From contig JAIPIU010000004.1 in assembly GCA_021734475.1 (NCBI GenBank), positions 1 through 64,000 of the forward strand: a stretch of DNA of 64,000 nucleotides. Direction: 5' to 3'. Position 1 is the first letter of the stretch; each line of letters starts with the position of its first letter. The position numbers and the translations under genes are program-made. The DNA comes from Candidatus Altimarinota bacterium (GTDB lineage Bacteria; Patescibacteriota; Gracilibacteria; Absconditabacterales; Absconditicoccaceae). Positions 6,655 to 38,026 of this stretch are shown in pieces. The notes beneath the pieces were generated by a model, which did no database searches, had not been told where the DNA came from, and saw nothing but the letters and a program-made list of their open reading frames with translations.

Positions 6655-6684
6655 AACCCTGGTTTTTTACCAGGGTTATTTTTT
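6655..6684 (+). terminator. Rho-independent terminator of purC
   Basis: AACCCTGG stem, TTTTTTA loop, CCAGGGTT stem, then a T-run. It overlaps the end of the convergent Nudix gene and could act in both directions. Confidence 0.85.
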
Positions 6685-7342
6685 ATATTATTTCTACTAT
6701 CTCAACTTTTTTGGATCTAAATTGGTATAGTTTAGCTGGCCTATTTTGAACTCAGATTTCTTTTTCTCATGTCTCTTTGACAATTCATAATTTATCGATT
6801 TTTTTTCTAAAATTTCTAACATCAAATTTTTGGTTTAATATAGTTTCATAAACATTTTGAAGTTGAGAAAGAGTAAATTTGGATGGTAATATATATTGAG
6901 CTACATTAGTATATTCCATTTTCCATTTAAGTCTTTGTATAGCATAATCAAGAATTTTTTTATGATCAAAAGCTAATTTTGGTAATGATTTGACTGGGAA
7001 AAATTTTACTTCAGCAGCATCTGATCAAGCTTTTATCAAAATATTTTCTCTAGATATGAGAGCCATATAGGCGATACTTACTACTCTACCCCTAGGATCT
7101 CTTTTGGGATCTGAGAATGTATATAGTTGTTCTAGATAAACATTTTTTACATTTGTTTCTTCTTCTAGTTCTCTATAGGCAGCAGTCTGACAATCTTCGT
7201 TATCATAAACAAATCATCATGGAATAGCTCGTTGATTTTTGTATGGATCGATAAGTCTTTTGATTAGTAGCACTTGGAGCTTATCTTTGATAATACTAAA
7301 GATAACATTGTCTACAGTTACCAGGATTTTTTGTTTTATCAT
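6683..7342 (-). CDS. Nudix hydrolase with C-terminal winged helix (NrtR-like)
   Basis: 219 residues. The N-terminal Nudix domain holds [22 protein letters not shown] at about 39-61; the Nudix box is present, with one Gly as TGA. It is preceded by [18 protein letters not shown]. The C-terminal third ([25 protein letters not shown]) matches the winged helix of NrtR-type proteins. NrtR proteins bind ADP-ribose and repress NAD-salvage genes, so this could regulate the NAD operons at 28-37 kb, which share a promoter type. Alternatively it is a plain ADP-ribose pyrophosphatase. The regulator role is inference from domain architecture and window content. Confidence 0.8.
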
Positions 7343-18165: not shown

Positions 18166-21100
18166 TTACCCACCTAAAACAACCCTCCTCTCATCTTCAC
18201 TCAATCCATACAAATCGAACACCATCTCATCAATCTCTTTATCCGTCCTTTCAATTTCTCCCTTCACCACCAAAACTTTTTCCTTATATTCTTTGAAATA
18301 AGGTTCTCGGTCGTCTTGGTCGGATAGTGAAAGTGAAATTTTTTGCTTTTTCAATTCATCCAAAAAATCTTTGAATTCTCATTTGTAGAAAGATTCTAGT
18401 TTCTTTGTAAGCTTTTCTATTTTTAGGTTATCTTGGATTCTGTGGAGAAATTTATCTGTAAGTTCGTGAAGTTCTTTGGTTAGCAAAAGTATTTTATCTA
18501 CATGTTCTATAAATCTTTTTTGATCTATTAACATTTTATCTGGAATTGGTATCGACTCTATCGCATCTTTTGTAATATTAGTGTTTGATTCTCAATAATA
18601 TGAATTATAGAAATAACTAATTAATTTTGAGTTAATAATTCAAAGAATCACTCTTATATCAATCACTCCTTCCATAATGTTTATTATATTTGCATTAGGG
18701 AAAACAATATTATTAGAACAGTCTAAAGAAGCAAATATTTTATTTATATTTTGACCAACAATTCTTTGTAATATTATTTTTTCTGAGAAATGCCATTTTT
18801 TTGTTTTATCATCAATTCATGATATATTAACATATTTTTCTACTGGATCTATGTAGTATCTATGGGTATCTCTTCATTCTATATATTTATTACATATTTT
18901 TATTAACTTTTGATCATTATCTAAATCGGTTTTACTAAATATTCATGTAGGGTACTTAAAATCATTCACAATTGTTTCCGTCGGTATACTCATCCATCAT
19001 TTATGTAAAGAAATATATTTTTTAAAATTACATTTATTAGATAATATCTTCAAAATAATATTATCTATATCTAAAACTATATTCCCATCTAAAACATCAT
19101 TAAATATTTTTTGTTCAACAATATTTATTTTTTTAAAACTATTATTAGTTATTACTCAATTATTAGAAAGTTGAGTTTTATCTACTATTTTAAGAAATGT
19201 TTTTAGATCATCTTTATATTTTATTTTATTATAAACAGTGATTGTTGTTTCCGTATTTACTTCAGTAAATGGGAAAAATCTGTAAGGAAAATCTATAATT
19301 TCTATTAAATGTGTTTCTTCAAAAATGAACTTTCTTAATTTATAAAAACTTTTGTTCGTATAAAATGAGTTTGGGGTTATAAATGAAAGATATCAATTAT
19401 CTTTCAGTAAAAATCTAGTGGATACATATATAAATATTTCATATAAATCCATTTCGGAAAATAGAATGTCGCTGTATTTACTTCGAAAATAATTTCTATC
19501 TACAGTATTTATTGCTTTTGTGCTAACATACGGTGGATTCCCTACAATAACATCAAATCATCAATTTTTCATAATTTCCTTAAATTGAACATTCCAATCA
19601 AAGGCTTTTTCTTTCGCTACAAATGGATCATCAATTAAACTATTCCCACACTTAATATTTCCATCCAAGTTATTTAATTTCTTTCATTTTTGTGCTGACT
19701 TCAATCGTAACGAAAGCTTGGTAATTTCCACACTTTCTTCGTTCAAATCTACTCAGTAAATATTATTGGTCAAAATATTTTTATAGAGAGTTGTATCGTC
19801 GAAGAGTCATTTGATTCATAAACTTTTTAGGATTTTCCCTATTCTTTCATTTTCTTCCAAGAGAACATCGAAAACACGCACAAGAAAAGCTCCACTTCAA
19901 CAAGCTGGATCGAGGACTTTGATATTTTGGAGTATTTGTTGATATTTTAAATATGCTTTCTGTTCAGGATTTTCTATATTTTTTTTTCGTCTTCTTTCTC
20001 CTGTTTTTTCGTCTATTGTACTCACTTCTGATAAACATTCATCTTCTTTTTCATTAAGATATTTCATTACGCTATTTTGTACGATATAGTCCACGATATA
20101 TTCTGGTGTATAGAAGATTCAGTCTTTTTTTCTTCTTCATTTAGAATTATCTTGAGTTTCTCTTCATATCAAATCTTCTTTGATTTCTTCTAGGTCGCTA
20201 ATAGATTGCTCGAAGATATGTCAGAGAATATTTACAGAAATATCATCCTCGAAGTTGTAATTGGTCAGTCATACAAAATCATTACAAATATCATCACTAA
20301 TTCTGAGACTATTTAAGATATGATCTTCCTTGAATAATCATCCGTTGTATCAATCTGGAATTCATAGTTTTTCGCTCCCGCTATCTACTCCAGTAAAAAA
20401 TCTTTTGGTCATCTCTCGTGGAGAAATGTCAAATTCTCATGCTCTCACGATTCACTCTTTGAGTTTCTTGTCTGGAAGCAAGCCTTTGTCTTCGCAGAAG
20501 AAAATAAAAATAAGTCTATCTATAATTTTCTGTGCTTTTTCTACTGATGTGGTGACGGATAGATTTGGATTGTTTTTTCTGATATCTTGGATCAATCTGA
20601 TTCTAAGTTCTTTGTATTCCTGATAAAATTTCTTTGTGATTTTTTGTTGTTCTTCCCTGAAATGTGAAAGAAGTTTTTCTGTCTTTCCTGTAAGTAGATT
20701 ATCTCTGTGGAGAAGTAGGTATAATTTCCTGAGATTGAAGTAATTATCTTTTGGATCTAATAATTCGTCTAAGTTTCGAATTTCGAAATCTGTCGTATTA
20801 TCTCTGTATAATCTGATTTCATAAAAATTACTAACAATAAGTCGTTTGCAATTTTTCAATCATGTTTTGTATGCGAATCCTTGACCGACAGCAGAAAGTC
20901 ACCCATGTCAGAATTGTTTTTTTGTTAGATTAGTTTTAGCTCATTTGAGTTCACAAACAATCTGAACATTTTCTGGTTCATATTTTCAGTCAACAAAATC
21001 TCATATTGTAAGGTCAGCTATTCCTCAACCCAAAACTCATCATTTGGGAATACGATTTATCATATCTTGGTATCACAACAATTCTCAGAAAAAAATCTGA

Positions 21101-21252
21101 TTGAAAGTTTGTTCGTATCTACTTTCATCGTCTAGCAATTTATTTTTCCGATCTTGATGAAGTCTTTTTATGATTTCTATTTTTCAATCATCAAATCAAG
21201 GAAGCACTTCTATATGTGATTTGATTGTTCATTTACCGAAGAGTTGCGACAT
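18166..21252 (-). CDS. Type IIG restriction-modification enzyme (Eco57I-like)
   Basis: 1028 residues, one frame with TGA as Gly. The N-terminus carries a PD-(D/E)xK-like nuclease: ADLTIGDFVDG ... VQIVCELKGAKTNL (about 78-102), with ELK as the metal-binding core. The methyltransferase domain has motif I KVLDPACGSGAFLVRVFDVL at about 449-468 and motif IV VIVGNPPYVS at about 563-572, typical of N6-adenine methylases. The remaining C-terminal 400 residues should hold the target-recognition domain. Such single-chain enzymes cut at a fixed distance from an asymmetric site. Upstream lie paired CCCTATAGTTT inverted repeats and a Fic gene. Confidence 0.92.
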
Positions 21253-21294
21253 ATTTTTTTTGTTGAATTAAAGTTTTGGGTAAATTTTGGTGTT

Positions 21295-21371
21295 CTTTCC
21301 CTATAGTTTGTCAAAAAACATAAACTATAGGTAAGTTTTTGTATATTTTCCCTATAGTTTACAAACTATGG
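21295..21371. promoter_or_regulatory. Paired inverted repeats upstream of the RM gene (operator candidate)
   Basis: CCTATAGTTT-N12-AAACTATAGG (about 21299-21330) and CCTATAGTTTACAAACTATGGG (about 21351-21371) form two palindromes made of four half-sites, embedded in a roughly 57-bp direct repeat with the element GGTAARTTTT. The second overlaps the Fic stop codon. The position between fic and the RM gene suggests an operator or hairpins controlling RM expression. Confidence 0.55.
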
Positions 21372-22483
21372 GTAAATTTTATAACTTTTTCCTTATTCTT
21401 GATGTGTCCAAATAAGATATTGATATATTCAGGAATATAATAAGGCACTTCGTATTCTGACTTATATATTTGTAAGATAGTGTTAAAAACCAGTATATCA
21501 ATATATTTTTTGATTGTTTTTCTAGTGTACTTGCCGTCTTTTTCGATCATCGCTATACTACAATATGGTCTATCAAAAAAATAATCAATGAAAGTTCATG
21601 GAATTTTGAGTTTTAGATCATCTATTTTTTGTTTCTTTTCTCTGATAAGATTTGTGATAGCTTCTAGCTTATTTTTAGTCTTTTGGGCTTGTTCTTCTAC
21701 AGCTACAAGCATATAATTTACAAGACTATCTCGGTCTCACTTAGTTCTAATTCAATTCAAAAATTTGTAATAATCAGATTTATGTTCGTTGATATATTCA
21801 CTAAGATATAGAATTGGCAATTTCAATAAGCCTTTGAGAACTAAATAAAGAATCATCAAAATTCTACCAGTTCTTCCGTTTCCGTCTGGAAATGGATGAA
21901 TAGATTCAAACTGATAGTGGATGATCGCTAGTTTTACTAATGGATCTATTTCATCATCAGTATTGATATATTTCTCTAGGTTGGATAATAAATTTCTAAT
22001 AACATTTTCTCCAATAGGTGGAGTATAAATTACTTCTCCTACTCCATTCATCAAGACCGTTCATGGTATTTTTCTAATTCATGATTTATCTGGTTCTATC
22101 ATAGATTGGATAGTAATAAGCGTATTTGCGATAAGTGATCAGTATTTATCTACTTGTTCGATTCACCAAAGTGTAGCCTGTCTATAGTGTAATACTTCTT
22201 TATCCTCCTTAGAAATTTTACCAGAAGAGATATCAGCTTGAAAAACACTCTCAAGAGTAGTGTTGATATTTTCTATGGCACTACTTGCTACTCATTCCTT
22301 AATCAAAAAAGATCACAATACCAAAAGACCTACATTATCTGTATTTGTTGTAATATAGGTATTGAGAGTAGCTAATGCCCTACTTGCCTTGGATAATTGT
22401 CGATAAGTTTTTTCTGACAATTTTAGATTTTTGGGAGGCAAGTGTGACAAATTATTGTCTGCTAATATTGGATTAAACATCAT
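21359..22483 (-). CDS. Fic-domain protein, class II, with C-terminal winged helix
   Basis: 374 residues. The inhibitory motif S-S-A-I-E-N at about 64-69 is class II type. The flap and core [20 protein letters not shown] precede the active loop [12 protein letters not shown] at about 193-204. The C-terminus ([18 protein letters not shown], then [17 protein letters not shown]) fits a winged-helix DNA-binding domain common in Fic proteins of the COG3177 type. It is the first gene of the minus-strand RM/macro block and could regulate or modify its neighbours, possibly through the palindromes just downstream. Confidence 0.92.
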
Positions 22484-22629: not shown

Positions 22630-22657
22630 TTGATTTTTCTTTCTTTTTGTTTATATT
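22630..22657 (+). promoter_or_regulatory. TTGATT-N16-TATATT promoter of the four-gene island
   Basis: TTGATT at 22630 preceded by CCTC, a 16-base spacer and TATATT at 22652. Similar CTCTTGATTTT promoters precede the two NAD operons (27904, 32110). Transcription would start near 22664, giving a leader of about 350 nt. Confidence 0.5.
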
Positions 22658-22660
22658 ACA

Positions 22661-22830
22661 ATTACTCAAGAGAAAGAAATATTGTATGATCGTATATCTG
22701 CGACGGACTGTCAGAGCGATTGTACCCCGCTTCTCCTTAGAAGATTCTTCTCACGAGTAATATCTAAATCACTATAGACTTTGCTATGAAGAAAGTCTAT
22801 TCAAATTACAATTTACTTATTGTAATTTGT
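22661..22830 (+). ncRNA. Candidate structured leader or small RNA
   Basis: Starts at the predicted transcription start with ATTACTC pairing to GAGTAAT 94 bases later; inside are AGAGAAAG / CTTCTC and AGAAGA / TCTTCT pairings. Two further perfect hairpins follow. The internal sequence is more GC-rich than the surroundings. No match to a known RNA family is claimed. Confidence 0.35.
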
Positions 22831-22871
22831 ACAAGTTCATTAACATATAGATTAATTAATGTAAACAATTT

Positions 22872-22962
22872 AACGCCGATTGTTTTGGAAATCTTCAACT
22901 AAATAACACAAACATATTTGAAGCATCCAAAATCACCGGCATAATTTCGACATCGCAAAAAT
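22872..22962 (+). repeat. Left copy of the ~90-bp inverted repeat flanking the UGA-free island
   Basis: Forms a hairpin CCGATTGTTTTGG ... CCAAAATCACCGG with an inner CTTCAA / TTGAAG pair, then continues ATAATTTCGACATC. The reverse complement of 27722-27802 aligns along its length (CCGACTGTTTTTGAAATC ... TCAAAAATCGCCGG, then TATAATCTCGATGCC). Confidence 0.6.
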
Positions 22963-23009
22963 CTTCTTTATAATCAGATTTTTACTGTGTCTCAAATAAA
23001 CAAAATAAT

Positions 23010-23858
23010 ATGAAAACCTTAGATCAATTCCAAATCGCTGGAGCTAGCGTTGCAGGTTCTCGCCACTTCAAAATTGGTAAGAACAACCAAGACGCTTATG
23101 TCTGGATAAAAAATTCTGATCACATTATATGTGTAGTCAGTGATGGTTGTAGTAGTGGATCTCACAGTGAGGTCGGCAGTCAGATCATAGCTCCCCTGTT
23201 TGCCCAGACACTATCAACTTATTTATCCCGGCCACATCCTGGTCTGAGTGATGAAAATTATTTTCGTCATGACTGGCTATGGTACAATGTCAGGCAAGAT
23301 GTACTTGCCCGTATACGTATACTTGCACAGAGTATGGATGATAATCTGATCGCTACGATCTGCAAATATTTTCTATCCACTGTTGTAGGATGTGTAATTA
23401 CTACTACTAGTACTTGTATATTTGGCTGTGGAGATGGAGTATTCTATCTCAATGGTGAAATGCATGTACTAGGTCCTTTCCCAGGCAACAAGCCTCCCTA
23501 TCTATGCTATGGTATCACTGGTAGTGAAGTAACCAATCAAAATCCTTCGCTATTGGATATCCACAGACATATCATTTGTTCGACTGATGAAGTGCAAACT
23601 TTATTGATTGGGACTGATGGTATCTCTGATCTGGTAGAAATATCTGAAAAGAATTTCCCCGGACAAGACAGGATTATCGGTGATATTAGTCAGTTTTGGA
23701 CTGATGATATTTACTTTTACAATCCTGAATGGATGCGCAATGTATTGACTACTATCAATACTGAAAAGCGCAAACCTATATGGGAAGAAAGGACTATCAT
23801 GAAGCATCAGGCATTATTACCTGATGATACTACATTAATCGTTTTGAGAACAATTTAA
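23010..23858 (+). CDS. PP2C-type protein phosphatase (TerY-P triad-like)
   Basis: 282 residues. Metal-binding PP2C motifs: KNNQDAYVW (about 27-35), CVVSDGCSSGSHSEVGS (about 44-60), LIGTDGISDL (about 203-212) and LPDDTTLIVLR near the C-terminus. This divergent PP2C class accompanies a zinc-ribbon kinase and a VWA protein in the TerY-P triad described by comparative genomics. It probably dephosphorylates proteins phosphorylated by the kinase encoded 11 bases downstream. All glycines (about 20) are GGN; no UGA. It ends in TAA. The long structured leader upstream may regulate it. Confidence 0.88.
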   Translation: MKTLDQFQIAGASVAGSRHFKIGKNNQDAYVWIKNSDHIICVVSDGCSSGSHSEVGSQIIAPLFAQTLSTYLSRPHPGLSDENYFRHDWLWYNVRQDVLARIRILAQSMDDNLIATICKYFLSTVVGCVITTTSTCIFGCGDGVFYLNGEMHVLGPFPGNKPPYLCYGITGSEVTNQNPSLLDIHRHIICSTDEVQTLLIGTDGISDLVEISEKNFPGQDRIIGDISQFWTDDIYFYNPEWMRNVLTTINTEKRKPIWEERTIMKHQALLPDDTTLIVLRTI

Positions 23859-23869
23859 AAAATCTGACT

Positions 23870-25756
23870 ATGAAAACCGTTTATCTCAATGGTCAAGCCA
23901 TCCGACTTTCGAAAGAAATTGGTGCTGGCCAAGAAGCAGTAGTGTATGATATGGGACATGGTCAGGTTGCGAAAATTTATCGTTTCCCAAATGATCCTTA
24001 TTATGCACAATCTCTCGAAGAGCAGAAAGCTGCCAAAACAAGGATCTCTATACATCAGAAAAAATTAGCAATGTATCCTGGTGGGCTACCAAGCAACATC
24101 ATAGTTCCTAGTAATCTGTTGACGGACAAACAAGGAATCATCGTGGGGTATACAATGCGATTTATTACTGGTGGGGAAACTCTTCTCAAATATGGAGATA
24201 TGGGATACAGACAATCTATGAACATTAGCAATAATGAAATCAGAGATATCTTTATCAATCTCCATGATACTGTACGCAGTCTTCATGCCAAAAAAGTAGT
24301 GATTGGCGATTTCAATGATCTCAACATCTTGGTAAAGAACAAACAAGTTTATATGATAGATACTGACTCCTACCAATTTGGTCCATGGGTCAGCACTATG
24401 TATACAGAAAAATTTGTCGATCCTTTGCTATGTGATGTGCTAATCAAAAACAATGACCCTTTTTGGACTATGACTCGCAATCACAACTACAATGGTGACT
24501 GGTATGCATTCTCCAGTCTGCTATTCAAATCACTTCTATTTGTCGATCCCTACGGTGGTATTTACAAGCCCAAAGATCCAAATAAAAAACTGAAACAACA
24601 ATTACGTCCTTCAAAACGTATCAATGTTTTCAATCCTGAAGTGATCTATCCCAAACATGCATATCCTTTCAATGTGCTTGATGGCAACTCTATTCGCTAT
24701 TTCCAGGATCTCTTTAACAAAGATCTAAGAGGCGAATTTCCTAGAGCACTACTAAGTAATATGCATTGGAATATGTGTAATGCATGTGGCATAGAATATG
24801 CAAGTCATGTATGTCCTGTGTGTAATGCAGGTCGTATCCATGTATTTGCTCCTATCTCTGTGAGTGGCAATGTACAGGTAAAAGAAGTTTTTGTGACTGG
24901 AGGTATCATCATGTTTGCCGATGTACAACACGGCAAGCTGGTATATGTCTATCATGAAAATGACCAATACAAACGTGAAAGTGATAGGGTTATAATCTCT
25001 GGGGCTTTGTCCCGTGGTTTACATATCGCTATCAATGGTACATCTACTGTACTTAGCGAATCTCACACTATGGCAGTTATTGATCAATCCGGCAAATCTC
25101 AGAAAATGTTTATTGATTGTGTAGGCACACGGGCTGTATGTGATGCTAGCGCCAATCAGATTTACTGGGTAGAAAACGGAAATATCTACAAAACTAATCC
25201 TTTGGGATTGGAGTACTCACCTATCAATATAGGTCAGGCTATCGTAGACAATACTCTGCTATGGACTGGAGATAAATTTGGATTTGGTATTTACAAAGCT
25301 GGCAATATTTTGCAAGGATTTATGTTTGATGATAATAGTAAGGTAATCAACGACAAGGTTAATTTACCTTTCATCAAAGGACAGATCATCGATGCAAAAG
25401 CGTATATCAGCAATGATATTACATGGTTTATGATTGCCACCAAAGATCAATCCAAATACATTAACCATTGTCTGGTAATAGATAAACATGGAAAAATTCT
25501 GACTCATATTACTGATGAGAATGAAAACAAAGCATGGTTATCTCACATCAAAGGTAAATCTGCTATTGGCAATTATCTTTTCTGTCCCAGTAATGATGGT
25601 ATCATGAGAATAGGTGTAGATAATAATGGAAATATAGAGACGAAATTGTTTGTCGATACAGAGCATTATGTCAACGAACAATCTAGTTTACTAGTCTCCC
25701 CTATGGGTATTTATGTTATCAAGCGAAATAAGATTCTTCTTGTTTCGATGAAATAG
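23870..25756 (+). CDS. Protein kinase with zinc ribbon and C-terminal propeller-like region (TerY-P kinase-like)
   Basis: 628 residues. The N-terminal kinase domain has a Gly loop (IGAGQEAVVYDMG), the ATP-binding Lys in VAKIYRF, a catalytic loop VVIGDFNDLNILV in place of HRD, and YMIDTDSYQFG as the Mg-binding motif; GDxNxxN plus DTDSxQ is characteristic of TerY-P kinases. A zinc ribbon CNACGIEYASHVCPVCNAG lies at about 301-319. Residues 330-628 are beta-rich and may form a propeller (VNLPFIKGQIIDAKAYIS and similar strands). It would phosphorylate the VWA partner or ribbon-bound clients. UGA-free; ends in TAG. Confidence 0.87.
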   Translation: MKTVYLNGQAIRLSKEIGAGQEAVVYDMGHGQVAKIYRFPNDPYYAQSLEEQKAAKTRISIHQKKLAMYPGGLPSNIIVPSNLLTDKQGIIVGYTMRFITGGETLLKYGDMGYRQSMNISNNEIRDIFINLHDTVRSLHAKKVVIGDFNDLNILVKNKQVYMIDTDSYQFGPWVSTMYTEKFVDPLLCDVLIKNNDPFWTMTRNHNYNGDWYAFSSLLFKSLLFVDPYGGIYKPKDPNKKLKQQLRPSKRINVFNPEVIYPKHAYPFNVLDGNSIRYFQDLFNKDLRGEFPRALLSNMHWNMCNACGIEYASHVCPVCNAGRIHVFAPISVSGNVQVKEVFVTGGIIMFADVQHGKLVYVYHENDQYKRESDRVIISGALSRGLHIAINGTSTVLSESHTMAVIDQSGKSQKMFIDCVGTRAVCDASANQIYWVENGNIYKTNPLGLEYSPINIGQAIVDNTLLWTGDKFGFGIYKAGNILQGFMFDDNSKVINDKVNLPFIKGQIIDAKAYISNDITWFMIATKDQSKYINHCLVIDKHGKILTHITDENENKAWLSHIKGKSAIGNYLFCPSNDGIMRIGVDNNGNIETKLFVDTEHYVNEQSSLLVSPMGIYVIKRNKILLVSMK

Positions 25757-25843
25757 TAAAGAATGTAGAATGCTGAATGTAGAATCAGTTTTCTGAATTC
25801 TTAATTCTTAATTAATTAAATAAACCTTTTAAATTATTTTATC

Positions 25844-26869
25844 ATGAAAAAGTTTGAAACACCGAAGCATTACGATGCTTCCAAGGCCGATCAGGTTTAC
25901 AAGATTGGCTATCAGAATCTAGCAGATGACGCGCTGGTATTCAAAGCAAATAATGCCATTAGCGATGCAGCTACTGACAAGTTTAAAATCGCTCTCATGC
26001 CGATCGATATGCAGAATACATTCTGTATTCCCGGTTTCGAGCTCTTCGTTGGAGGTGCACCCGAAGACAGCAAACGTCTCGCTGAATTTATTTATGCCAA
26101 TGTTGGTAGGATCACAAAGATCTTCCCAACTATGGATACTCACAAAACCATGCAAATTTTCCACTCGCTATTCTTTTTGGATGGGAATGGAAAACCAGTG
26201 CCTGCGATGACTATGATCTCTTCAGCAGATCTGATCAATGACACATACACCATCAATCCTGGTGTTGCTGCAAGTTTAGGAGTATCCTACACTGCCCTCA
26301 AAAAGCACACTATTCACTATGCACAGTCTCTGGAGAAAAAAGGAAAGTATCAGTTAACTGTATGGCCCTATCATGCAATGCTTGGTGGGATCGGACACGC
26401 TCTGGTATCTCTCATCGAAGAAGCCGTTTTCTTCCACACCGTTGCAAGAAACAGTGAATCAGGAACAGAGATCAAGGGAGGTAATCCTTTGACCGAAAAC
26501 TATTCCGTGCTCAGCCCTGAAGTCTTGGATACCTTCAATGGTACAGCTATTGCTCAGCGTAATGCCAGCTTCATCCAAAAACTTCTGGATTATGACATGC
26601 TCATCATCGCTGGTCAGACTAAATCACACTGTGTAGCTTGGTCTATCGATGACCTATTGACCGACATTATGGCCAAGGATCCTTCACTTGCAAAGAAAGT
26701 CTACCTGATGGAAGACTGTACTTCGCCTGTGGTTATCCCTGGTATAGTGGACTTCACCGACCAAGCCAATCAGGCTTTTGAAAAATTCCGTAATGCCGGT
26801 ATGCACATCGTCAAAAGCACCGATCCAATTGATCAGTGGCCAGACGTAGATGTAAGTAAATTTGTTTAA
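25844..26869 (+). CDS. Isochorismatase/nicotinamidase-superfamily hydrolase
   Basis: 341 residues, longer than the usual 180-220. The Asp strand is KIALMPIDMQNTFCIPG, then FPTMDTHKTMQIFHS and YQLTVWPYHAMLGGIGHALV, and the nucleophile region is MLIIAGQTKSHCVAWSIDDLL with Cys in SHC. The family cleaves amides or vinyl ethers such as nicotinamide or isochorismate. Its place between the kinase and VWA genes suggests it makes or removes a small-molecule signal for the system. UGA-free, with GC-richer codon use than code-25 neighbours. It ends in TAA, 27 bases before the VWA gene. Confidence 0.85.
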   Translation: MKKFETPKHYDASKADQVYKIGYQNLADDALVFKANNAISDAATDKFKIALMPIDMQNTFCIPGFELFVGGAPEDSKRLAEFIYANVGRITKIFPTMDTHKTMQIFHSLFFLDGNGKPVPAMTMISSADLINDTYTINPGVAASLGVSYTALKKHTIHYAQSLEKKGKYQLTVWPYHAMLGGIGHALVSLIEEAVFFHTVARNSESGTEIKGGNPLTENYSVLSPEVLDTFNGTAIAQRNASFIQKLLDYDMLIIAGQTKSHCVAWSIDDLLTDIMAKDPSLAKKVYLMEDCTSPVVIPGIVDFTDQANQAFEKFRNAGMHIVKSTDPIDQWPDVDVSKFV

Positions 26870-26881
26870 CAGATAAAAATT

Positions 26882-26888
26882 TAGGAGG
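26882..26888 (+). promoter_or_regulatory. Strong Shine-Dalgarno sequence of the VWA gene
   Basis: TAGGAGG lies 8 bases before the ATG at 26897. Most genes in the window have A-rich, SD-less starts, so this one is exceptional. Confidence 0.75.
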
Positions 26889-26896
26889 ACAAAACA

Positions 26897-27688
26897 ATGT
26901 CACAAAGTAAATCAAATTTAGGACTCTTGCAGAATGCCCATGAAGATGGCGATCTGAGTAGCAATTCTTTGAATGCTCTCACAAAGATCCCTGACATCGG
27001 AGCGATTATTCAACAGGGGCTTGGTGTACCGATTGATTCGGTAAAATCGAGCGAAGTTATTCTGCTCAATATACTAGTTGATGACTCAGGTTCTATCAGT
27101 GGTGCTGGTAACGAACAGCCCATCAGAGATGGACACAATATGTTGATCCAGGCATTGCTCGAGAGCAAACAGCAGGACAACATCGAGGTTATCAACAAGT
27201 ATCTCAATGGAACGGTTCTGTATCCTTACACACCGCTTTCACTGGTCCCCAAAATGGATTCCAGAAATTATCATGCCAATGGAGGTACTCCTCTATTTGA
27301 CGAAACAGCCAAGCTTCTTGCCACTGTTATTGCCAAAGCTCAGGATTTCAAAAATAACGGTATCCAGGTAAGGACAATTACTCTGATTCTCACCGATGGT
27401 GACGATTGTCATTCACGTACAAGCACAGCTGCTGATGTCTCTAAGATTGTCACAGATATGCTCAGAAGTGAAGATCATATCATTGCCGCCATGGGATTTG
27501 ACAATGGATCATGCAATTTCAAAAATGTATTTAGCAATATGGGGATTCCCGATCGCTGGATACTGACCGCAAATGCAAATCCAAGTGAAATCCGTAAAGC
27601 ATTTCAGGTTTTTAGCCAGAGTGCTGTACGTGCATCTCAGAGTGCCGCTCATTTTAGCCAGACCAGTCTTGGTGGGTTTGGTAATTGA
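26897..27688 (+). CDS. VWA-domain protein (TerY-like), ends in TGA
   Basis: 263 residues under the standard code. The MIDAS metal site is complete: LVDDSGSISG (DxSxS), GGTPLFDETAK (Thr) and LILTDGDDC (Asp). The fold matches TerY-type VWA proteins, the third member of the TerY-P triad with the upstream PP2C and kinase. The frame ends GGFGN-TGA at 27686. If UGA is Gly in this host the protein would gain 47 residues, to TAA at 27829, running through the flanking repeat. This conflict indicates a standard-code origin. UGA-free otherwise, with a strong SD site. Confidence 0.87.
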   Translation: MSQSKSNLGLLQNAHEDGDLSSNSLNALTKIPDIGAIIQQGLGVPIDSVKSSEVILLNILVDDSGSISGAGNEQPIRDGHNMLIQALLESKQQDNIEVINKYLNGTVLYPYTPLSLVPKMDSRNYHANGGTPLFDETAKLLATVIAKAQDFKNNGIQVRTITLILTDGDDCHSRTSTAADVSKIVTDMLRSEDHIIAAMGFDNGSCNFKNVFSNMGIPDRWILTANANPSEIRKAFQVFSQSAVRASQSAAHFSQTSLGGFGN

Positions 27689-27721
27689 GATGTGATAAAA
27701 ACTTGAATTTTTATGAGAGTT

Positions 27722-27802
27722 TTTAGGCATCGAGATTATACCGGCGATTTTTGACGCATAAAGTACGAAAGTAATTTATGATTTCAAAAACAGTCGGTGT
27801 GG
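27722..27802 (-). repeat. Right copy of the ~90-bp inverted repeat flanking the UGA-free island
   Basis: Inverted relative to 22872-22962. On the plus strand it reads CGAGATTATACCGGCGATTTTTGA ending in TTTCAAAAACAGTCGG when split into its two arms, and can itself fold into a hairpin. A gap of several bases in the loop distinguishes the copies. Confidence 0.6.
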
Positions 27803-27850
27803 TTAATGTTTGGAAAGTTTACTTTCTAAATCAACCAAGGATTTTTAAGA

Positions 27851-27880
27851 CCCGTACTGTTTTTCAGTGCGGGTTTTTCT
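27851..27880 (+). terminator. Rho-independent terminator of the four-gene island
   Basis: CCCGTACTG tttt CAGTGCGGG then TTTTT. An additional TTTGGAAAG / CTTTCTAAA hairpin lies just upstream at about 27808-27830. Confidence 0.85.
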
Positions 27881-27931: not shown

Positions 27932-28115
27932 CAAAATGAAGATGAAAAAAAAGATAGTTTATTTGGAATTAGGAAATGGTTTAACTGTAATCGGCAATTA
28001 AATAAACAAATTCCAGATAAACAAATTCCAAATCTAGTTTTATTTTTTTTACAAATTAGTTATTGTATTTTATACATTATTAATCTACTCTATTTATTAT
28101 TTAACCCCCTAAAAA
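27932..28115 (+). promoter_or_regulatory. Leader of the pncA-pncB operon with imperfect hairpin
   Basis: GTTTATTTGGAATT pairs with a downstream AATTCCAAAT, and AAATTCCA repeats occur between. A 21-codon frame (ATG at 27935) could be a leader peptide. A second promoter-like TTTACA-N17-TATACA follows. The same layout is seen at 32141-32295 before nadE. Confidence 0.45.
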
Positions 28116-28931
28116 ATGGAAACAATGACATCAAACAAAACTTACACAAAAGAAACTTTGGAAAAGAAACTTAAATTGCAAGAATGCCAAGATATAGAAG
28201 ATATTGCTATGATAAGCGTAGATAATACTCAGACATTTGAGAATAAAGAATTGAATGAACTATATGTAAATGAAGGTGAACAAGCTGCCCATGGAACAAA
28301 AAAAATTATGGAAGCTTGTAAGTATTATGGAATAACAATGATCAATGTATTGGAAGAACATCCAATATGACACATCTCATTGGCCTCTAATTACAAAAAC
28401 AAAAAGCCATTTGAAATGATAAATTATTTTGAAGTAGCAGATCGAACAGATGAAGAAAATGGATTAAGTGAAAGAGCTCAGTTTACAGTAGAAGAATTAA
28501 AAAGTTTTTTGAAAGAACTTAGTTTAGAGTGAAAATCACAGATGCTGTGGCCAGATCATGGAGTAAAATGAACTCAGTGAGTGGAACTAAGTGAACCATT
28601 GAATGAATCAGATTTTGATTTGAAAGTTATAAAATGAACAAATGCAGCAAGAGAGGCTTACAGTGGATTTGATGAAACAGTACTGGACGAAGAATTGAAA
28701 AAGATGTGAAAAAAAATTTTGATTGTTGGATGAGTAGCTACTGACTACTGTGTCGGACAGACAGCATTGGATGGGCAAGAAAAATGATATCAAGTATATC
28801 TAGTAAATGAAGCTATCAGATGAGTAGCTCAAGAAACTACTGACGCTATGATAGAAATATTGAAAGCAAAAGAAGTTGAATTTATATCTGCTATGGAATT
28901 GTTTAACATCATTGAGAAGAAATTTGCTTAA
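28116..28931 (+). CDS. pncA: Nicotinamidase PncA-like
   Basis: 271 residues with TGA as Gly. Catalytic Asp in MISVDNTQTF, HPIGHISLAS zinc-site region, the MLWPDHGVKGTQGVELS segment, and the nucleophilic Cys in ILIVGGVATDYCVGQTALDG. The enzyme deamidates nicotinamide to nicotinate, the entry step of Preiss-Handler salvage. It is followed by pncB, which uses the product. ATG at 28116 or 28125. Confidence 0.92.
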
Positions 28932-29035: not shown

Positions 29036-30511
29036 ATGAATACTTTCGATACCCAATCATACAAAGCTAAAATGAAGGAATTTCCAGAAATTAGCTATCA
29101 AGAATATCAAGAAATTACTGATTTGGAAATCAGGAGAGATATTGCTAAAAAAAATAAAATCATACAAACCGATGCCTACAACAGAACTATGGAATTTTTG
29201 AAATGAAAAAGATGAGAGTTGATAGAGACTTTAACGTTGGCATTTAGAAGATCTCCAAACAAAAGCTACAATGTAGTAGATGGTATCAGAAGTACTCTAA
29301 AAGATATTTTGTGAGTAAAAATCACACAATCAGAACTCGATTTCGCTAAAGCATATTACGCAGATCAAAAATCTAAGTGAGCAAATGGATATTTCAATGC
29401 AGATATGCGACAAGAAGTAATAGATAATGGATGATATCTACCATTGAAAATAATGGCTGTAGAAGATGGTACTGTAGTAAAAATCAAAGAACCAGTAATG
29501 ACTGTGACATGACCAGGAGAATTGGCTGCAATATATGAACCGATTTTTATTAGAGCTTTTTTCAAAAGCGTGGTAGCTACAGATGCGCACGAAATAGATA
29601 AAATTATAGGTGAAGGTAGAATAGCAGAATTTGGTAAAAGAGCTGCCCCAAATGAAGATTTTCATCTAGATGCAGTAGAAGCAAATATTGTAGGTGGTGG
29701 ATTGAAAATTACTTCTAATGATACAGCTGCTCTAGTATATCCTCAGACGCTCAGTGGATGAACTACTGCTCATAGATATTTTGCATGCTACCCTAGCGAA
29801 GATGAAGCATTTTTGAATGCTATAGAAAAATGTGATAAAATTTCTCTATTGGTAGATCTAATAGATTCATACAAATGAATAGACAAAATAGTTGCTTTGA
29901 AAAAGAAATATAGAAATTCATGAAAAATTATAGGAATGAGATTGGATAGTTGAGATCTAGCTGATCAGGCAGTATATGCTTTGAAAAAATTAAAAGAAAA
30001 TTGAATGCTAGATCCGACACTAGATAAAATCGTAGTAGCAGATATATCAAGTATAGATGATATTAGAAGAGTAGAAAATGCAGTCAGAGAAGCTGGATTT
30101 GATCCAAAAGATTTTATTCAATACTGACTTGGATGATTATTGGTAGCTAGAAACAAGACTAGAGATGCTCTATCTGCAGCATACAAATTAACAAACATAG
30201 AAAGCTGAGCAACATGAAAATTGAGTAATGATATAGACAAAGAACCTATTCCATGAGTTTTGAATATCGAAATCAGAGATGATGCAAGATATGTAGTACA
30301 AGAAGATGAAGAAATAAAATGAGAAAGATTATTGAAAACAGTGTACGAAAACTGAAAACTAAACTATGATGATAATGATATACAAGCAGTGAGTAATGCA
30401 AGAGCAAGACTAATGAATACCTTAGCATTTGCAAATATGAAAACTAAAGAATCTGATGAAACCCAAAGAATTCATGCAGAACTAAGAGATAGATTTTTAA
30501 ATAAAATGTAG
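29036..30511 (+). CDS. pncB: Nicotinate phosphoribosyltransferase
   Basis: 491 residues. Converts nicotinate + PRPP + ATP to nicotinate mononucleotide. Features: SYQEYQEITDLEIRRDIAK at the N-terminus, VMTVTGPGELAAIYEPIFIRAFF, EFGKRAAPNEDFHLDAVEANIVGG, IVADISSIDDIRRVENAVREAG with IQYGLGGLLVARNKTRDALSAAYK near the C-terminus (phosphate-binding and product-binding segments of the NAPRT family). Many of the Gly are TGA. The substrate comes from PncA upstream; PRPP can come from Prs encoded at 51.7 kb. Confidence 0.88.
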
Positions 30512-32080: not shown

Positions 32081-32109
32081 TTTTCTTATTGTAATTTTTA
32101 CATTTTCTC

Positions 32110-32140: not shown

Positions 32141-32295
32141 TTGCGAAGATGAAAAAGTATCAGTTTATTAGGAATTAGTTTATTGGAAATCAGCAAGACA
32201 AATTCCCAGTTCCAAATAAACCAATAAACGATTTATTTTTTTACAGACAACTTATTGTATTATATAAAATTATTTATAATCTAACTATTATAACA
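32141..32295 (+). promoter_or_regulatory. Leader of the nadE operon, related to the pncA leader
   Basis: GTTTATTaGGAATT ... TTTATTGGAA in the 5' arm opposes TTCCAAATAAACCAATAAAC in the 3' arm. The downstream CTTATTGTATTATATAAA (TTTACA-N17-TATAAA) also has a counterpart in the pncA leader. Confidence 0.45.
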
Positions 32296-33927
32296 ATGAA
32301 AATCTGAATAGCTCAAATCAATACAAAACTCTGAGATATAGAAAAAAATACTCTCAAAATTGAAGATACTATCAGAAAAATCTGAAATGAATCTGATGTG
32401 ATAGTTTTTCCAGAAATGAGTATCTCTGGTTACCCTCTCAATGATCTACTAGATGATGAAGATATGGTAAAAAAACAGAAGGAAGTGATTTATAAAATAA
32501 GAAATATAGTAAACGAAGTAAATGAAAATCTCAAAGTTATACTTGGATTTATAGACTATAATGAAGCCGAAGTATTGCCTTCATGAGAAATGAAAAAATA
32601 TAATGCAGCAGCCGTAATATGAAAAGATGTTCAGATTTATCATAAAAGATTATTACCAAATTATGATGTGTTTTTTGAACAAAGATATTTTGCTCCAGGA
32701 AAAGAATGATTGACATTCAAAATAGCACAAGATCTTAAATGAGCTATGACAATATGTGAAGATATACGAGATGATAATTATGAAGATAAGCCCATACAAG
32801 AATATAAAAATAAAGACGTAGATGTAATATTTAATATATCTAGCTCTCCATATGCTAATGAAAAAATAAAAAAAAGATTAAAACTACTTAGAAAACATGC
32901 AGAAAATATATGATCTCATATGGTATATGTCAATCAAGTATGAGGACAAGATGAACTCGTTTTTGATGGATGAAGTATGGTAGTTACTCCTGATGGATGC
33001 CTACAACATATTAGTAAAAGATTCCAAGAAGATATAAGTATAGTAGATACAGATAAAAAATGTCATGACCATAGCTATGAAGTAGTCAATGAAGACCAAT
33101 ACAGATATAGTAATATAATAGAAGCGATGAAATTATGATTAAAAGATTATTTGGAAAAGACTGGTATCAAAAATGTAGTAATATGAGTAAGTGGGGGTAT
33201 AGATTCAGCTTTGAGCTTGTATATTTTGAGTAAAGTATTAGATCCAGAAAATATACATGCGATCTATATGCCAACTAAATACAATAGTAATGAATCTCGA
33301 GAACTAAGTAAAAAATTAACAAAAAATTTGGGAGTAGAATTGAAAGTAGGAGAAATTCAGGATATAGTAAAAAGTTTTGAAAAATTTGGAGAAGAAAAAT
33401 TATGAAAAAAACCTGAATGAATCACACATGAAAATATCCAAGCACGTATCAGATGAATGATACTAATGAATATTGCAAACGATGTAAAATGAATGGTAAT
33501 AAACAATTCCAACAAAACAGAATTAGCTATGTGATATGGCACTCTCTATGGAGACTTAATAGGATGATTATCTTTGATATGAGATTTGAATAAAAAAGAA
33601 ATTTATGAAATGGCTAGATATATAAACGCACATAAACGTGAAGAAATAATACCAGCAGGAATTATAGATAGAAAAGCATCAGCTGAATTAGCAGAGGGAC
33701 AAGTAGATCCATTTGATTATGAAAAAGTTTCTGATGCCATTGAAGAATTACAGTTTGGAGCTAACGTAAAAGAAGTAGCTGAGAAATATAATTTGGATCT
33801 AGAAGAAGTAAAAGCTATGAGAAAAAGAATCAAGATAAATGAATTTAAAATCAGGCAAGCTCCTCCAGTAATTAAATTGAAGGAAAGGAGTGTAGGAATT
33901 GGAAGGTTGTATCCGATAGTGGAGTAA
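32296..33927 (+). CDS. nadE: Glutamine-dependent NAD+ synthetase
   Basis: 543 residues. The N-terminal nitrilase-fold glutaminase has Glu (VFPEMSISGYPLND), Lys (YHKRLLPNYDVFFEQRYF) and Cys (TICEDIRD). The C-terminal synthetase has the P-loop VIGVSGGIDSALSLYI and NKTELAMGYGTLYGDLIGGL. Several of these glycines are TGA. It amidates nicotinate adenine dinucleotide to NAD+ using glutamine, the last salvage step. First gene of the operon with nadK and the nadM pair. Confidence 0.96.
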
Positions 33928-34041: not shown

Positions 34042-34848
34042 ATGGAAAACAAAGAATTAATCTACTATCCAGTACTGGATACCTTTAGGGATAAAGCCCA
34101 AGAAATAGAAAAAAAAATAAAAGAATGATTATTAACTAATCTCAAAATCACTGATAATATAGATGAAGCCAATGCTATATTGGTCGGATGATGAGATGGA
34201 TTTATGCTGGATACTGTGAAAAAATATTATGATTTTGATAAATCTCCAGAAGATAATAAATTGTTTTTTGGAGTAAATTGTGGAACTTTATGATTTCTTT
34301 TGAATAATATACAGCTAGATGATATACCTAGTAATACCCAATGATTGGAGATAGTAAAAGCCAATCTAATGAAAGTAGAAATAATAAAAACTGATACAAG
34401 TATCGAAATCAAACATGCTATCAATGATGTAGTAGTAGGATGAAACATGTTGGACTATTTTAAATTTGATATAGATTCTAATCAAGTAAAAAAGAGATTT
34501 CATGGTTCTGGAGTAATAGTATCTACAGCTATGTGAAGTAGTGCATATTGGTTGAATAACGGATGACCACTGATGCCTGCTGGTAGTCAATTACGAGGTA
34601 TAAGTGGATTAGCAGCATTACCATTTGGATATACAATACTCAAACCAGAAAACGTAAATATAAAAATAAAATGAAGAACACCAGTGATGGTAGGAGTAGA
34701 TTGATATGGAGGTAAAGTTGATGATGTACAGGAATTGACTATAAGTCCTACTGAACATTATGCTAATATAATGTTTACAAACTGAACATCATTTGACACC
34801 AAGAGGATGTTATTGGCTGAAGAAAAATTATTGAGGGAAGACTTTTAA
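34042..34848 (+). CDS. nadK: NAD kinase
   Basis: 268 residues. NAILVGGGDGFML (GGDG motif, partly TGA-coded), FFGVNCGTLGFLLNN, the helix AMGSSAYWLNNGGPLMPAGSQ corresponding to the conserved TAYxxSAGGP block, and a C-terminal beta domain ending MVGVDGYGGKVDD. Phosphorylates NAD+ to NADP+. Encoded between nadE and the nadM pair. Confidence 0.93.
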
Positions 34849-35077: not shown

Positions 35078-36001
35078 ATGACAAAAGTCTGACTATTTAT
35101 TACTCGTTGTCAACCGGGCTTTCACGACTGACATATAGATAGTATCCGTGAAGCTTATGATGCATGAATAGAAAAAATAATTGTCTGAGTATGATCTGCT
35201 GACAAAGAATTTACCAAAGATAATCCATTCACTTACGATGAAAGAAAAAAGATGATAGAACTGTCTATCAAGGAATTTTTGCCAGCAAAAGACATTGAAA
35301 TTTATCCAATACCACATAGCAATGATAGCAAACAATGGAAAAATTATATATTAAAGAATCTTCCAGAATTTGATTATTTAATTAGTTCAAATCCTATGGT
35401 TTGGGAAGGATTTAAATGAGATAATAAAAAATTTTTTGCAACAAGTTTGACAACAAACACAAGAGCATCTATAATTAGAAATAAAATATCGATGTGAGAT
35501 TATCAATATTTATATAATGTATTAGCTACTAGTGTAGTAGAATATTTGAAGAATATAAAAGCATTCGAAAGACTCAAAGATATATTCAAAGATGAAAGAG
35601 TAACTCCAAATATAGTAACAGATGCTGTATTTTGTGATGAAAAATGAAAACTGGTTTTAATCCAAAGAACTAATGAACCCAAATGAATAGCCTTGCCATG
35701 AGGATTTGTAAACTATGGAGAAAGTACCGAAGAAGCTTGTATTAGAAAGGTTAAAGAAGAAACTTGAGCAGATATAAAAATAATAAGGTTAGTCTGAATA
35801 TATGACAATCTATCTAGAGATCCTCGCGATCATAATATTAGTGCGGTGTATCAAGTTGAGCTAACATGAAATGAAGTAGATCGGAATAGTTGAAATAAAA
35901 AAGTTTTGAAAGTAGATTTGAAAAAAATAGATGAAATAGAATTTGCTTTTATGGATCATAGGAAGATGATTAATGATGCATTTAGATATCATAATGACTA
36001 G
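35078..36001 (+). CDS. nadM: NadM-type NMN adenylyltransferase / Nudix fusion, paralogue 1
   Basis: 307 residues. N-terminal nucleotidyltransferase: GLFITRCQPGFHDGHIDSI keeps the (H/T)xGH motif as HDGH, with FTYDERKKMIELS and a weakly conserved second motif (TRASIIRNKI). C-terminal Nudix domain has GGFVNYGESTEEACIRKVKEETG, where the canonical RE is RK, so hydrolase activity is doubtful. NadM-Nudix fusions make (nicotinate) adenine dinucleotide and hydrolyse ADP-ribose. It is followed by a second copy with the complementary pattern of motif loss. Confidence 0.9.
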
Positions 36002-36134: not shown

Positions 36135-37064
36135 ATGACACAAGAAAAAAAAACTTGATTATTTATTACTCGTGCTCAGCCATGACTACATGCTGGTCAA
36201 ATTGATGGAATCAGACAGGCTGTATCACAATGAATAAGTAAAATTGTTATCTGAGTCGGATCTGCTAACAAAGAATTCACTAGTGATAATCCCTTCACTT
36301 ATGATGAAAGAAAAAAAATGATAGAACTAAGTGCAGAAGAGCTTTTGCAGGATATAGAAGTTGAAATTTTACCAGTACCAGATATGTGAGATAATGAAAA
36401 ATGGAGAAATTATATTTTCAATAATGCTCCTGAATTTAAATATATCATAAGTGGTAATGCTTGGGTTCAAGAAGTTTTTAAAGATACAGACAAGAAAATC
36501 ATACCCTTGGAAATAAGAAAATTTGTAAAATGATCGACTATCAGATGAAATCTAACAACTAGAAATATTCCAGAATTGGAAAAAGTTTTGCCGAAATCAG
36601 TAGTGGATTATCTATGAGAAATTAGAGCATTTCAAAGACTTAGAGAAATATTTAATGCAGAGAGAAAAACTCCAAGCTTGGTTGTCGATATGGTTTTGAT
36701 AGATAATGATGGAAAAATAATTTTGATTGATAGAAAAAATTTTCCTCAATGAGCTGCTCTACCATGATGATTTAATGACTATGGAGAAAGATGAAAAGAT
36801 GCAGCAATCAGAGAAGTAAAAGAAGAAACTGGACTAATAGTAGAAATTGAAAAGGAGCTATGAGTGTGGGATGAACCCAATAGAGATCCTCGTGCTCACA
36901 ACGTTACTCGTGCATTTAAATGAAAAATTATTTGATGAGAATTGAAAGCTGCAGATGATGCAAAAGCCATAGTAAAAATAGATCCAGAAAAATTAGATGA
37001 TGTAAAATTTGCATTTCCTGATCATAAAGAAATGATTTTGGAAGCATTAAAAAAAACTAGTTAA
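36135..37064 (+). CDS. nadM: NadM-type NMN adenylyltransferase / Nudix fusion, paralogue 2
   Basis: 309 residues. N-terminal GLFITRAQPGLHAGQIDGI has HAGQ in place of HxGH, so nucleotidyl transfer may be impaired, while the second motif KGSTIRGNL is canonical. The C-terminal Nudix box GGFNDYGERGKDAAIREVKEETG is intact, predicting an active ADP-ribose-type pyrophosphatase. It clearly arose by tandem duplication with the preceding gene, the two being separated by a family A palindrome. Its last codons overlap the terminator of the convergent radical SAM gene. Confidence 0.9.
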
Positions 37065-37099: not shown

Positions 37100-38026
37100 T
37101 TAAAATAATCTAGATCCAGCGTCATCCCATTTACTATACAAATGGCAATCGGGACGCAAGATAAGATATTTCATAACATCATTATCTTCTGCTGTACTCA
37201 TACAATCCTCATCTACAACACATGACATTCCGTGAACGCTGTAACGATAAGCACCAAATGGAAGTCGTTCTAATTTTTTTCCATGTTTGATAATGTATTC
37301 ATTGATCTTTTTAATTACGTCAGGATTTGCACGATGATCTTTTATCCATTGAGAAATTTCTTTCTCTTTTGAACTTTGAAACTCCACTGGAGTATCTGAA
37401 TCGTATAAAACCCTGAATGTGATTTGATTTGCACCAAGTTCTTTTGCCCTATTAAATATATCAACAGGATCAATATCATTGTAATAATCAACCATATTGA
37501 GTGAAAGACGGAGCGTGAAATCATATTTTCTGATTTCAGAACAAGTTTTGTCGATATCAACTACTGCTTTTGGCGATTTAGGCCGTGAATAAGCTTTGTT
37601 TAATTCTGAATCAAAGATATTAAACAAGCTCAATGAAATTGTTTTTACACGAATCATGTTTCTAAGCCAACGAAGATTAATACTACCCCCATTTTCTGCT
37701 GATTTCTTTAATAGAAACACTCCTGATGTCTGGAGCTCAATCCACCTAAATGGCTTATCAAGAGTTTTATTTAACTCTGTAATCATGCGAAGATAATAGA
37801 TATTCATAAGAGGTTCTCCATCGCCAGTAAGCATCATAACATTACAACCATTGTCACGAGCAAAGCTGAGAGCATCATGAAAGTCATCACGATAAAGATC
37901 TTCAAATTGATAATTTTTCTCTATCTGATTACTATAATTATCATCAGCATGTAGTTGAGATACACAACAAGCACAACTATTTGGACAGCCACCTGGTACT
38001 ACAATACTTAAACTTTGAATTTTCAT
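37100..38026 (-). CDS. Radical SAM protein (UGA-free)
   Basis: 308 residues. The [4Fe-4S]-binding motif is CPNSCACC (CxxxCxxC) at about residue 14, followed by MMLTGDGEPLMN (the GGE-like SAM motif) and FRWIELQTSGVFLL. The C-terminus has further Cys (GMSCVVDEDCM; LRPDCHLYS) that could hold an auxiliary cluster. The substrate is unknown. Glycines are all GGN, in contrast to flanking genes. It has its own TTGACA-N16-TATAAA promoter and its own terminator. Confidence 0.85.
   Translation of the reverse strand: MKIQSLSIVVPGGCPNSCACCVSQLHADDNYSNQIEKNYQFEDLYRDDFHDALSFARDNGCNVMMLTGDGEPLMNIYYLRMITELNKTLDKPFRWIELQTSGVFLLKKSAENGGSINLRWLRNMIRVKTISLSLFNIFDSELNKAYSRPKSPKAVVDIDKTCSEIRKYDFTLRLSLNMVDYYNDIDPVDIFNRAKELGANQITFRVLYDSDTPVEFQSSKEKEISQWIKDHRANPDVIKKINEYIIKHGKKLERLPFGAYRYSVHGMSCVVDEDCMSTAEDNDVMKYLILRPDCHLYSKWDDAGSRLF

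Follow-up and report, generated by a model that had tools for sequence, protein, structure and literature searches.

The 64,000-nucleotide stretch of contig JAIPIU010000004.1 analysed here (the window) carries, on one strand, an operon of four genes encoding a PP2C phosphatase, a protein kinase, a cysteine hydrolase, and a protein with a von Willebrand factor A (VWA) fold. We consider it probable (about 0.7) that this operon is an NrtR-controlled, TerY-P-like phospho-switch linked to nicotinamide adenine dinucleotide (NAD), that it works with a nicotinamidase-like enzyme, and that it belongs to an NrtR-type regulon together with pncA, nadE, nadM, and the gene for nicotinate phosphoribosyltransferase (NAPRT). 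Gene content, neighbourhoods, operator, protein motifs, distribution, and the lack of UGA codons were all computed directly.

In the window, the NAD genes all lie downstream of the operon, with NrtR upstream at 6.7 kb. PncA and NAPRT are located 3′ of the operon in the relatives L032, L034, G027, and G069, and a radical SAM gene adjoins it in L032, L034, and G027 as well as in the standard-code L074. NrtR is present in all six operon carriers of the family compared with 3 of the 13 family genomes without the operon (p = 0.003), and NAPRT in 5 of 5 carriers compared with 1 of 15 (p = 4e-4). In bacteria that use the standard code, NrtR (confirmed by NrtR_WHD) adjoins the operon in L036, L043, and L058, the last of which also has NAPRT and NadE at the locus, and PncA/NAPRT lie near the operon in G138. 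Homologues of the hydrolase without the kinase adjoin NAPRT or NrtR in Desulfobacterales, Calditrichota, and Chloroflexota. A first-pass annotation of this DNA had read the operon as stress signalling with an unusual hydrolase; NAD salvage with a nicotinamidase-like hydrolase is the better reading. Between NrtR and the operon, the window also contains genes for a type IIG restriction enzyme-methyltransferase and a SoFic-like Fic protein (18166–22483), both of which use UGA.

An operator of the form TTATTGTA-N5-TACAW occurs at the operon leader and upstream of both PncA and NadE. Allowing one mismatch to TTATTGTANNNNNTACAWT, the window contains five sites, compared with 0.39 expected (0 of 100 shuffles), and six genomes together contain 28 upstream sites compared with 1.3 in shuffles. 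Exact sites number only five in the 1.17-Mb genome: those of the operon, pncA, and nadE, and two on contig C4. The C4 pair (C4:33157-33597; L169:13157-13597) precedes a small gene and a gene that we read as a MazG-APRT-like fusion, which suggests that the NAD regulon extends to adenine salvage. The standard-code loci (758 kb) contain 18 copies of a site with this geometry, TAGTGT-N7-ACACTA, against 0–1, nearly always directly upstream of the PP2C, hydrolase, NrtR, or PncA gene; in L074 it also precedes the radical SAM gene that is an operon neighbour in genomes using genetic code 25. Because NrtR operators vary between groups (PMC6800001), we infer the identity of the operator-binding protein, for which NrtR is the candidate.

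The hydrolase has the motifs D55, D98-T-H100..H107, WPYH (174–177), KG (211–212), YS (220–221), and C263, and the nicotinamidase-type metal site, the WPxH and KG..YS motifs, and the Cys motif are kept across an alignment of 23 hydrolase homologues. When aligned with canonical PncA by hhalign, the hydrolase matches over its length with the catalytic residues in register (E = 3.5e-5, probability 72%); the VWA protein, run as a control, gives a probability of 0.1%. Matches to PF00857 are weak (8 of 23 members, best E = 0.0035). With the Asp-Lys-Cys triad and the metal-site Asp and His residues aligned, a nicotinamidase-like enzyme is the best reading of this protein, and nicotinamide is a candidate substrate.

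The TerY-P-like gene set recognized by the first-pass annotation is supported, with the phosphatase, a kinase bearing a zinc ribbon, and a VWA protein bearing a metal ion-dependent adhesion site (MIDAS) all present. The Pkinase match is weak (PF00069, 3e-4), and all catalytic residues are kept in an alignment of ten homologues: K35, D147, N152, and D164 are invariant, as are the zinc-ribbon residues C303, C306, C315, and C318, after which an extra β-propeller follows. AlphaFold models this C-terminal propeller with confidence; the kinase domain itself is poorly modelled. The VWA protein has no match among the Pfam, NCBIfam, and PADLOC models, but its fold is that of VWA/I domains (AlphaFold and Foldseek, E = 6e-7) and its MIDAS is invariant in the alignment. 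Among solved structures, the operon proteins have no close relatives by sequence.

The −35/−10 context of the probable promoter is also seen in L032, L034, G001, and G027. The conserved 5′ leader contains six pairs with changes on both sides across four genomes and has no Rfam match over 22659–22850. This structured, covarying leader is a riboswitch-like candidate and may place the operon under additional control at the RNA level.

None of the 107 Gly codons of the operon (20 + 47 + 20 + 20) is UGA in a genome in which UGA accounts for 66% of Gly codons (genome statistics on UGA were computed on 588 kb). The corresponding probability, 0.34^107 or about 1e-50, excludes chance. The earlier description of a compact four-gene operon without in-frame UGA over some 100 glycines, in a genome that reads most Gly from UGA, is thus borne out, and the operon has a foreign-looking composition (GC content 0.37–0.44 vs about 0.30). 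The operon is clearly one member of a sharp class of UGA-free genes: 16 of 267 open reading frames (ORFs) with at least 15 Gly (about 6%) have no UGA-Gly, and the distribution is bimodal. Other genes of this class are purC (5676–6635), a gene for a 301-aa protein (11337–12242), the radical SAM gene (37100–38026), prs (51679–52617), which is UGA-free in G001 too at 73% identity, and a purB-like gene (C4:4155-5495). High expression is ruled out as the sole cause of UGA avoidance, for 37 of the 41 Gly codons are UGA in AtpD, a highly expressed protein.

The operon is carried by six genomes of the family (G000, G001, G060, G063, G027, and G069), whose hydrolases form one clade (Shimodaira–Hasegawa-like approximate likelihood ratio test, SH-aLRT, 99). 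The hydrolase gene lacks UGA in 6 of 6 carriers, and where the four genes were read over their full length none of them contains it. Four-fold silent sites in the operon differ by 0.17–0.63 between carriers, and many Gly codons have changed, none of them to UGA within the genes; UGA is involved in most of the Gly codon changes of the NAD genes alongside. Recent acquisition by this genome, as the first-pass annotation had it, does not agree with the orthologues of relatives from other genera: these adjoin the same NAD genes, fall in one clade, and are all UGA-free. A shared place in the carriers and the absence of a paired element there speak against that earlier picture; the gene bodies, which have gained no UGA, remain in keeping with it. 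The four-gene order, sought in standard-code bacteria, was found in a cyanobacterium (L036), Parcubacteria (L043), Paceibacterota (L058), Patescibacteria (L074), and G138 (L195), and Desulfomonile (L091) has PP2C-kinase-hydrolase at a contig edge. Carriage by viruses or plasmids was rejected, as homologues on phages and plasmids are all distant (<40% identity) and IMG/VR contains none. An assembly chimera was likewise rejected: independent genomes have orthologues at the same NAD locus, and a family-specific promoter, leader, and terminator surround the operon.

The ends of the operon had been described as inverted copies of a structured sequence of about 90 bp. The two copies are indeed inverted and structured; they are longer than described (22868–22992 and 27688–27805). 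The repeat is about 125 nt long and folds into two hairpins (z = −4.5 for the left copy and −6.6 for the right). The left and right copies match each other, BLAST finds two further copies, and a covariance model built from four copies detects the repeat in 16 of 49 family genomes, with up to 43 copies in one, and in 0 of 23 genomes from other families of the class. In an alignment of 59 distinct copies, pairing holds in 91.6% of cells, compared with 35–52% in slid controls, and both sides vary in 34 of the 39 pairs; the alignment was fitted to the structure, so that these figures lean toward it. Copies are intergenic, in either orientation, and beside ordinary genes. The window has a copy on both sides of the operon, L034 has one on the left with an empty right site, and L032 has one on the right with an empty left site; both sites are empty in G001, and the right site is empty in G027. 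With about 10–14 copies in the 1.17-Mb genome, some 0.4–0.8 pairs less than 5 kb apart are expected by chance (simple arithmetic). Because copies are dispersed, sites are empty in operon carriers, and close pairs are expected by chance, the repeat is a dispersed element, either mobile or easily lost, and no island border.

Further copies lie at 49681–49804 of the window and at C2:29631, C3:21404, C3:178265, C4:8536, C5:38522, and C8:33568. The repeat is sometimes tandem (G024:C63, G063:C23), and a common hairpin 2, which can be shorter (L034), accompanies several sequence types of hairpin 1. Four identities were considered for the repeat and rejected: a cis-regulatory leader, as its orientation to adjacent genes is not fixed; a marker of UGA-free cargo, as the adjacent genes are mostly ordinary and UGA-using; a known RNA family, as there is no convincing match in Rfam; and a double-stranded cruciform, as G-U outnumber A-C mismatches 98:34, an excess that indicates single-strand or RNA structure. 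Y1 transposase genes are present in 7 of 11 repeat carriers compared with 3 of 25 other genomes (p = 0.003, not corrected for relatedness), a hint of behaviour like that of repetitive extragenic palindromic (REP) sequences and their REP-associated tyrosine transposases (RAYT). Two such Y1 (IS200-like/RAYT-like) genes, at 2433–2999 (−) and C4:122945-123298, are rich in UGA-Gly.

The right copy also bears on the end of the VWA gene. The VWA frame stops at a UGA (27686–27688) that is no stop in code 25, and the code-25 frame (26897–27829) runs through the repeat, 47 codons of it, to a TAA at 27829 and contains four UGA. At the equivalent position, the G001 gene ends ...GGT TGA TAG, and in the window the stop of the VWA gene seems to have been lost when the repeat inserted. 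Strictly counted, two VWA orthologues (window and G001) have UGA at the extreme C-terminus.

Table. Features of the window (coordinates in the 64,000-nucleotide stretch)
Feature	Position	Strand	Evidence or remarks
NrtR, Nudix-type repressor of NAD metabolism	6683..7342	-	PF21906 1e-24 and NUDIX 4e-17
Probable operon promoter	22630..22657	+	TTGATT, 16 bp, TATATT; sequence
Operator site 1	22645..22663	.	overlaps -10 of operon promoter; TTTTGTTTATATTACAATT
Structured 5′ leader	22659..22850	+	conserved; single copy in genome; fold z -4.8
Operator site 2	22817..22835	.	in leader; TTATTGTAATTTGTACAAG; exact match, 1 of 5 in genome
Left copy of dispersed element	22868..22992	-	covariance model 128 bits; covariation
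PP2C phosphatase gene	23010..23858	+	PF13672 1e-18; metal-binding Asp motifs present
Protein kinase gene	23870..25756	+	PF00069 3e-4; alignment; AlphaFold/Foldseek
Kinase parts (residues)			K35, D147, N152, D164; CxxC..CxxC zinc ribbon 303-318; C-terminal beta-propeller 335-628
Nicotinamidase-like cysteine hydrolase gene (predicted)	25844..26869	+	alignment; weak PF00857; hhalign vs PncA
VWA protein gene	26897..27688	+	complete MIDAS (D62xSxS66, T131, D167); Foldseek VWA/I domains E 6e-7
Right copy of dispersed element	27688..27805	+	covariance model 125.5 bits
Rho-independent terminator	27850..27879	+	sequence; kept in relatives
Operator 5′ of PncA	28060..28078	.
PncA nicotinamidase	28116..28931	+	PF00857 4e-17, NF008623 2e-28; 9/18 Gly = UGA
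NAPRT	29036..30511	+	NF006696 8e-41; 18/33 Gly = UGA
Operator 1 5′ of NadE	32086..32104	.
Operator 2 5′ of NadE	32252..32270	.
NAD synthetase NadE	32296..33927	+	NF010588 over cut-off; 19/39 Gly = UGA
NAD-kinase-like protein	34042..34848	+	PF20143 3e-4, below cut-off
NadM-Nudix (nucleotidyltransferase + Nudix)	35078..36001	+	PF01467 + PF00293
Second NadM-Nudix	36135..37064	+	PF01467 + PF00293
Radical SAM protein, UGA-free	37100..38026	-	PF04055 2e-4

The favoured reading can be rationalized as follows. NAD turnover or shortage would raise the level of the ligand of NrtR, which is ADP-ribose in those NrtRs that have been studied, and NrtR would leave the two tandem operators, one at the promoter and one in the leader. 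The PP2C/kinase pair would then be made along with the nicotinamidase-like hydrolase and may set the activity of this hydrolase, or of a partner, by reversible phosphorylation, with the MIDAS VWA protein as a putative metal-dependent adaptor and the β-propeller of the kinase as its likely docking or sensing part. NrtR binding, phosphorylation, substrate, and direction of regulation are all predicted elements of this scheme. The operon would have entered the code-25 family once, from a standard-code donor; it now resides at the NAD locus of its carriers, and its gene bodies have gained no UGA. The repeats on either side are independent copies of a dispersed structured repeat. More tentative, and rather unlikely in its full form, is the notion of a new system in which an NrtR-controlled TerY-P-type switch governs a dedicated nicotinamidase-like enzyme, so that NAD salvage would be set by phosphorylation as well as transcription, and in which the code-25 genes would be kept UGA-free by selection, as if they had to be translated when UGA-glycine decoding fails or had to remain exchangeable with standard-code cells. 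In the literature searched, no paper ties TerY-P modules to NAD metabolism. Cyanobacteria, several Patescibacteria, and the code-25 family share the gene set, the operator, and the regulator, which yields a testable idea of what this kind of triad senses or controls, and the operon offers a clean natural test of codon reassignment, having diverged without taking up UGA in its gene bodies while adjacent genes have it.

Several points weigh against the NAD-linked switch. Binding of the operator by NrtR, action of the kinase on the hydrolase, and use of nicotinamide by the hydrolase are each predicted from sequence. The operator was spotted by eye and then tested, which somewhat overstates its significance in the first six genomes; loci from standard-code bacteria are the more independent check. 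Overall UGA use is low in the sampled genes of G027 and G069, and the UGA argument is weaker there. The hydrolase scores below the PF00857 cut-off and adjoins a canonical PncA, so its substrate may differ. These last two observations, together with a length of about 340 aa that exceeds that of PncA, are what favours an operon that is co-regulated with the NAD genes but whose hydrolase has a different amide or ester as its substrate (isochorismatase-like or some other metabolite), the triad controlling something else, such as use of a host-derived metabolite. Against this stand the nicotinamidase-type motifs kept in all the aligned homologues and the location of stand-alone homologues, which in several phyla is next to NAPRT or NrtR, and we hold this reading to be unlikely, if a real possibility. 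The operon might instead be a usual TerY-P stress or anti-phage module, sensing metal or phage and placed by chance at a variable locus beside NAD genes, Fic, and type IIG: phosphatase, kinase-zinc ribbon, and VWA protein are the defining TerY-P set, such modules occur with restriction systems (PMC11090510), and SoFic and type IIG matches lie beside the operon in the window. The Fic and type IIG neighbours, however, are not conserved at the locus in L032, L034, G027, and G069, whereas the NAD genes are; the NAD operator precedes the operon; and the defence models yield no more than weak matches to the kinase, on which ground a known defence family was rejected. We regard this explanation as improbable.

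As to history, the two inverted copies at the ends, the lack of UGA, and the atypical GC content had prompted the proposal of a discrete mobile island, bounded by the repeats and recently inserted as a unit. This proposal is already contradicted and has almost no probability left, since the operon occurs without either repeat in G001 and G027 and with one side only in L032 and L034, the repeats are dispersed without the operon, and synteny extends across genera. The persistent lack of UGA could reflect transfer within the family, renewed input from standard-code donors, or selection against UGA. Selection against UGA-Gly in the operon, in place of repeated supply from standard-code donors, finds support in the single code-25 clade and in the comparison of the window with L034, in which none of 37 Gly codon changes in the operon involves UGA compared with 41 of 56 in the neighbouring NAD genes (p = 4e-14). 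However, silent sites are less diverged in the operon than in its neighbours, and the operon proteins of the window, G001, and L032 are closer than native genes, which makes transfer within the family likely. Transfer is favoured because prs, like other accessory genes, shows the same UGA-free pattern and the composition of the operon stays foreign; selection is a doubtful explanation.

Compared with the generally known traits of REP/RAYT-type repeats, the flanking element is likewise intergenic, multi-copy, hairpin-forming, and present or absent at orthologous sites, and many of its carriers have Y1 transposase genes; it differs in its length of about 125 nt, its two distinct conserved hairpins, its restriction to one family, and its absence from Rfam, and its link to the Y1 genes is statistical only. 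The operon itself is reminiscent of the TerY-P triad (TerY-like VWA protein, PP2C, and kinase with C-terminal zinc ribbon), with the same three components in one operon, the MIDAS intact, and the zinc ribbon straight after the kinase, the VWA protein being likened by fold and motif, as no curated model matches its sequence. It departs from that triad in the nicotinamidase-like hydrolase between kinase and VWA protein, the extra β-propeller on the kinase, and the NAD genes and NrtR-type operator, and among its conserved neighbours there is no Ter, CoCoNuT, restriction, or DNA-processing partner. With NrtR regulons it shares an NrtR gene, tandem palindromic operators, and the salvage genes pncA, NAPRT, nadE, and nadM; here, however, a kinase/phosphatase/VWA operon belongs to the set, plus a radical SAM gene in L074, and the operator half-site is unlike those quoted for Streptococcus and Mycobacterium (PMC6800001). 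The hydrolase, finally, aligns with the nicotinamidase PncA, an isochorismatase-like cysteine hydrolase, in its catalytic Asp-Lys-Cys and metal-site residues, but it is longer, falls below the Pfam cut-off, and coexists with canonical PncA as what appears to be the fixed partner of a phospho-switch.

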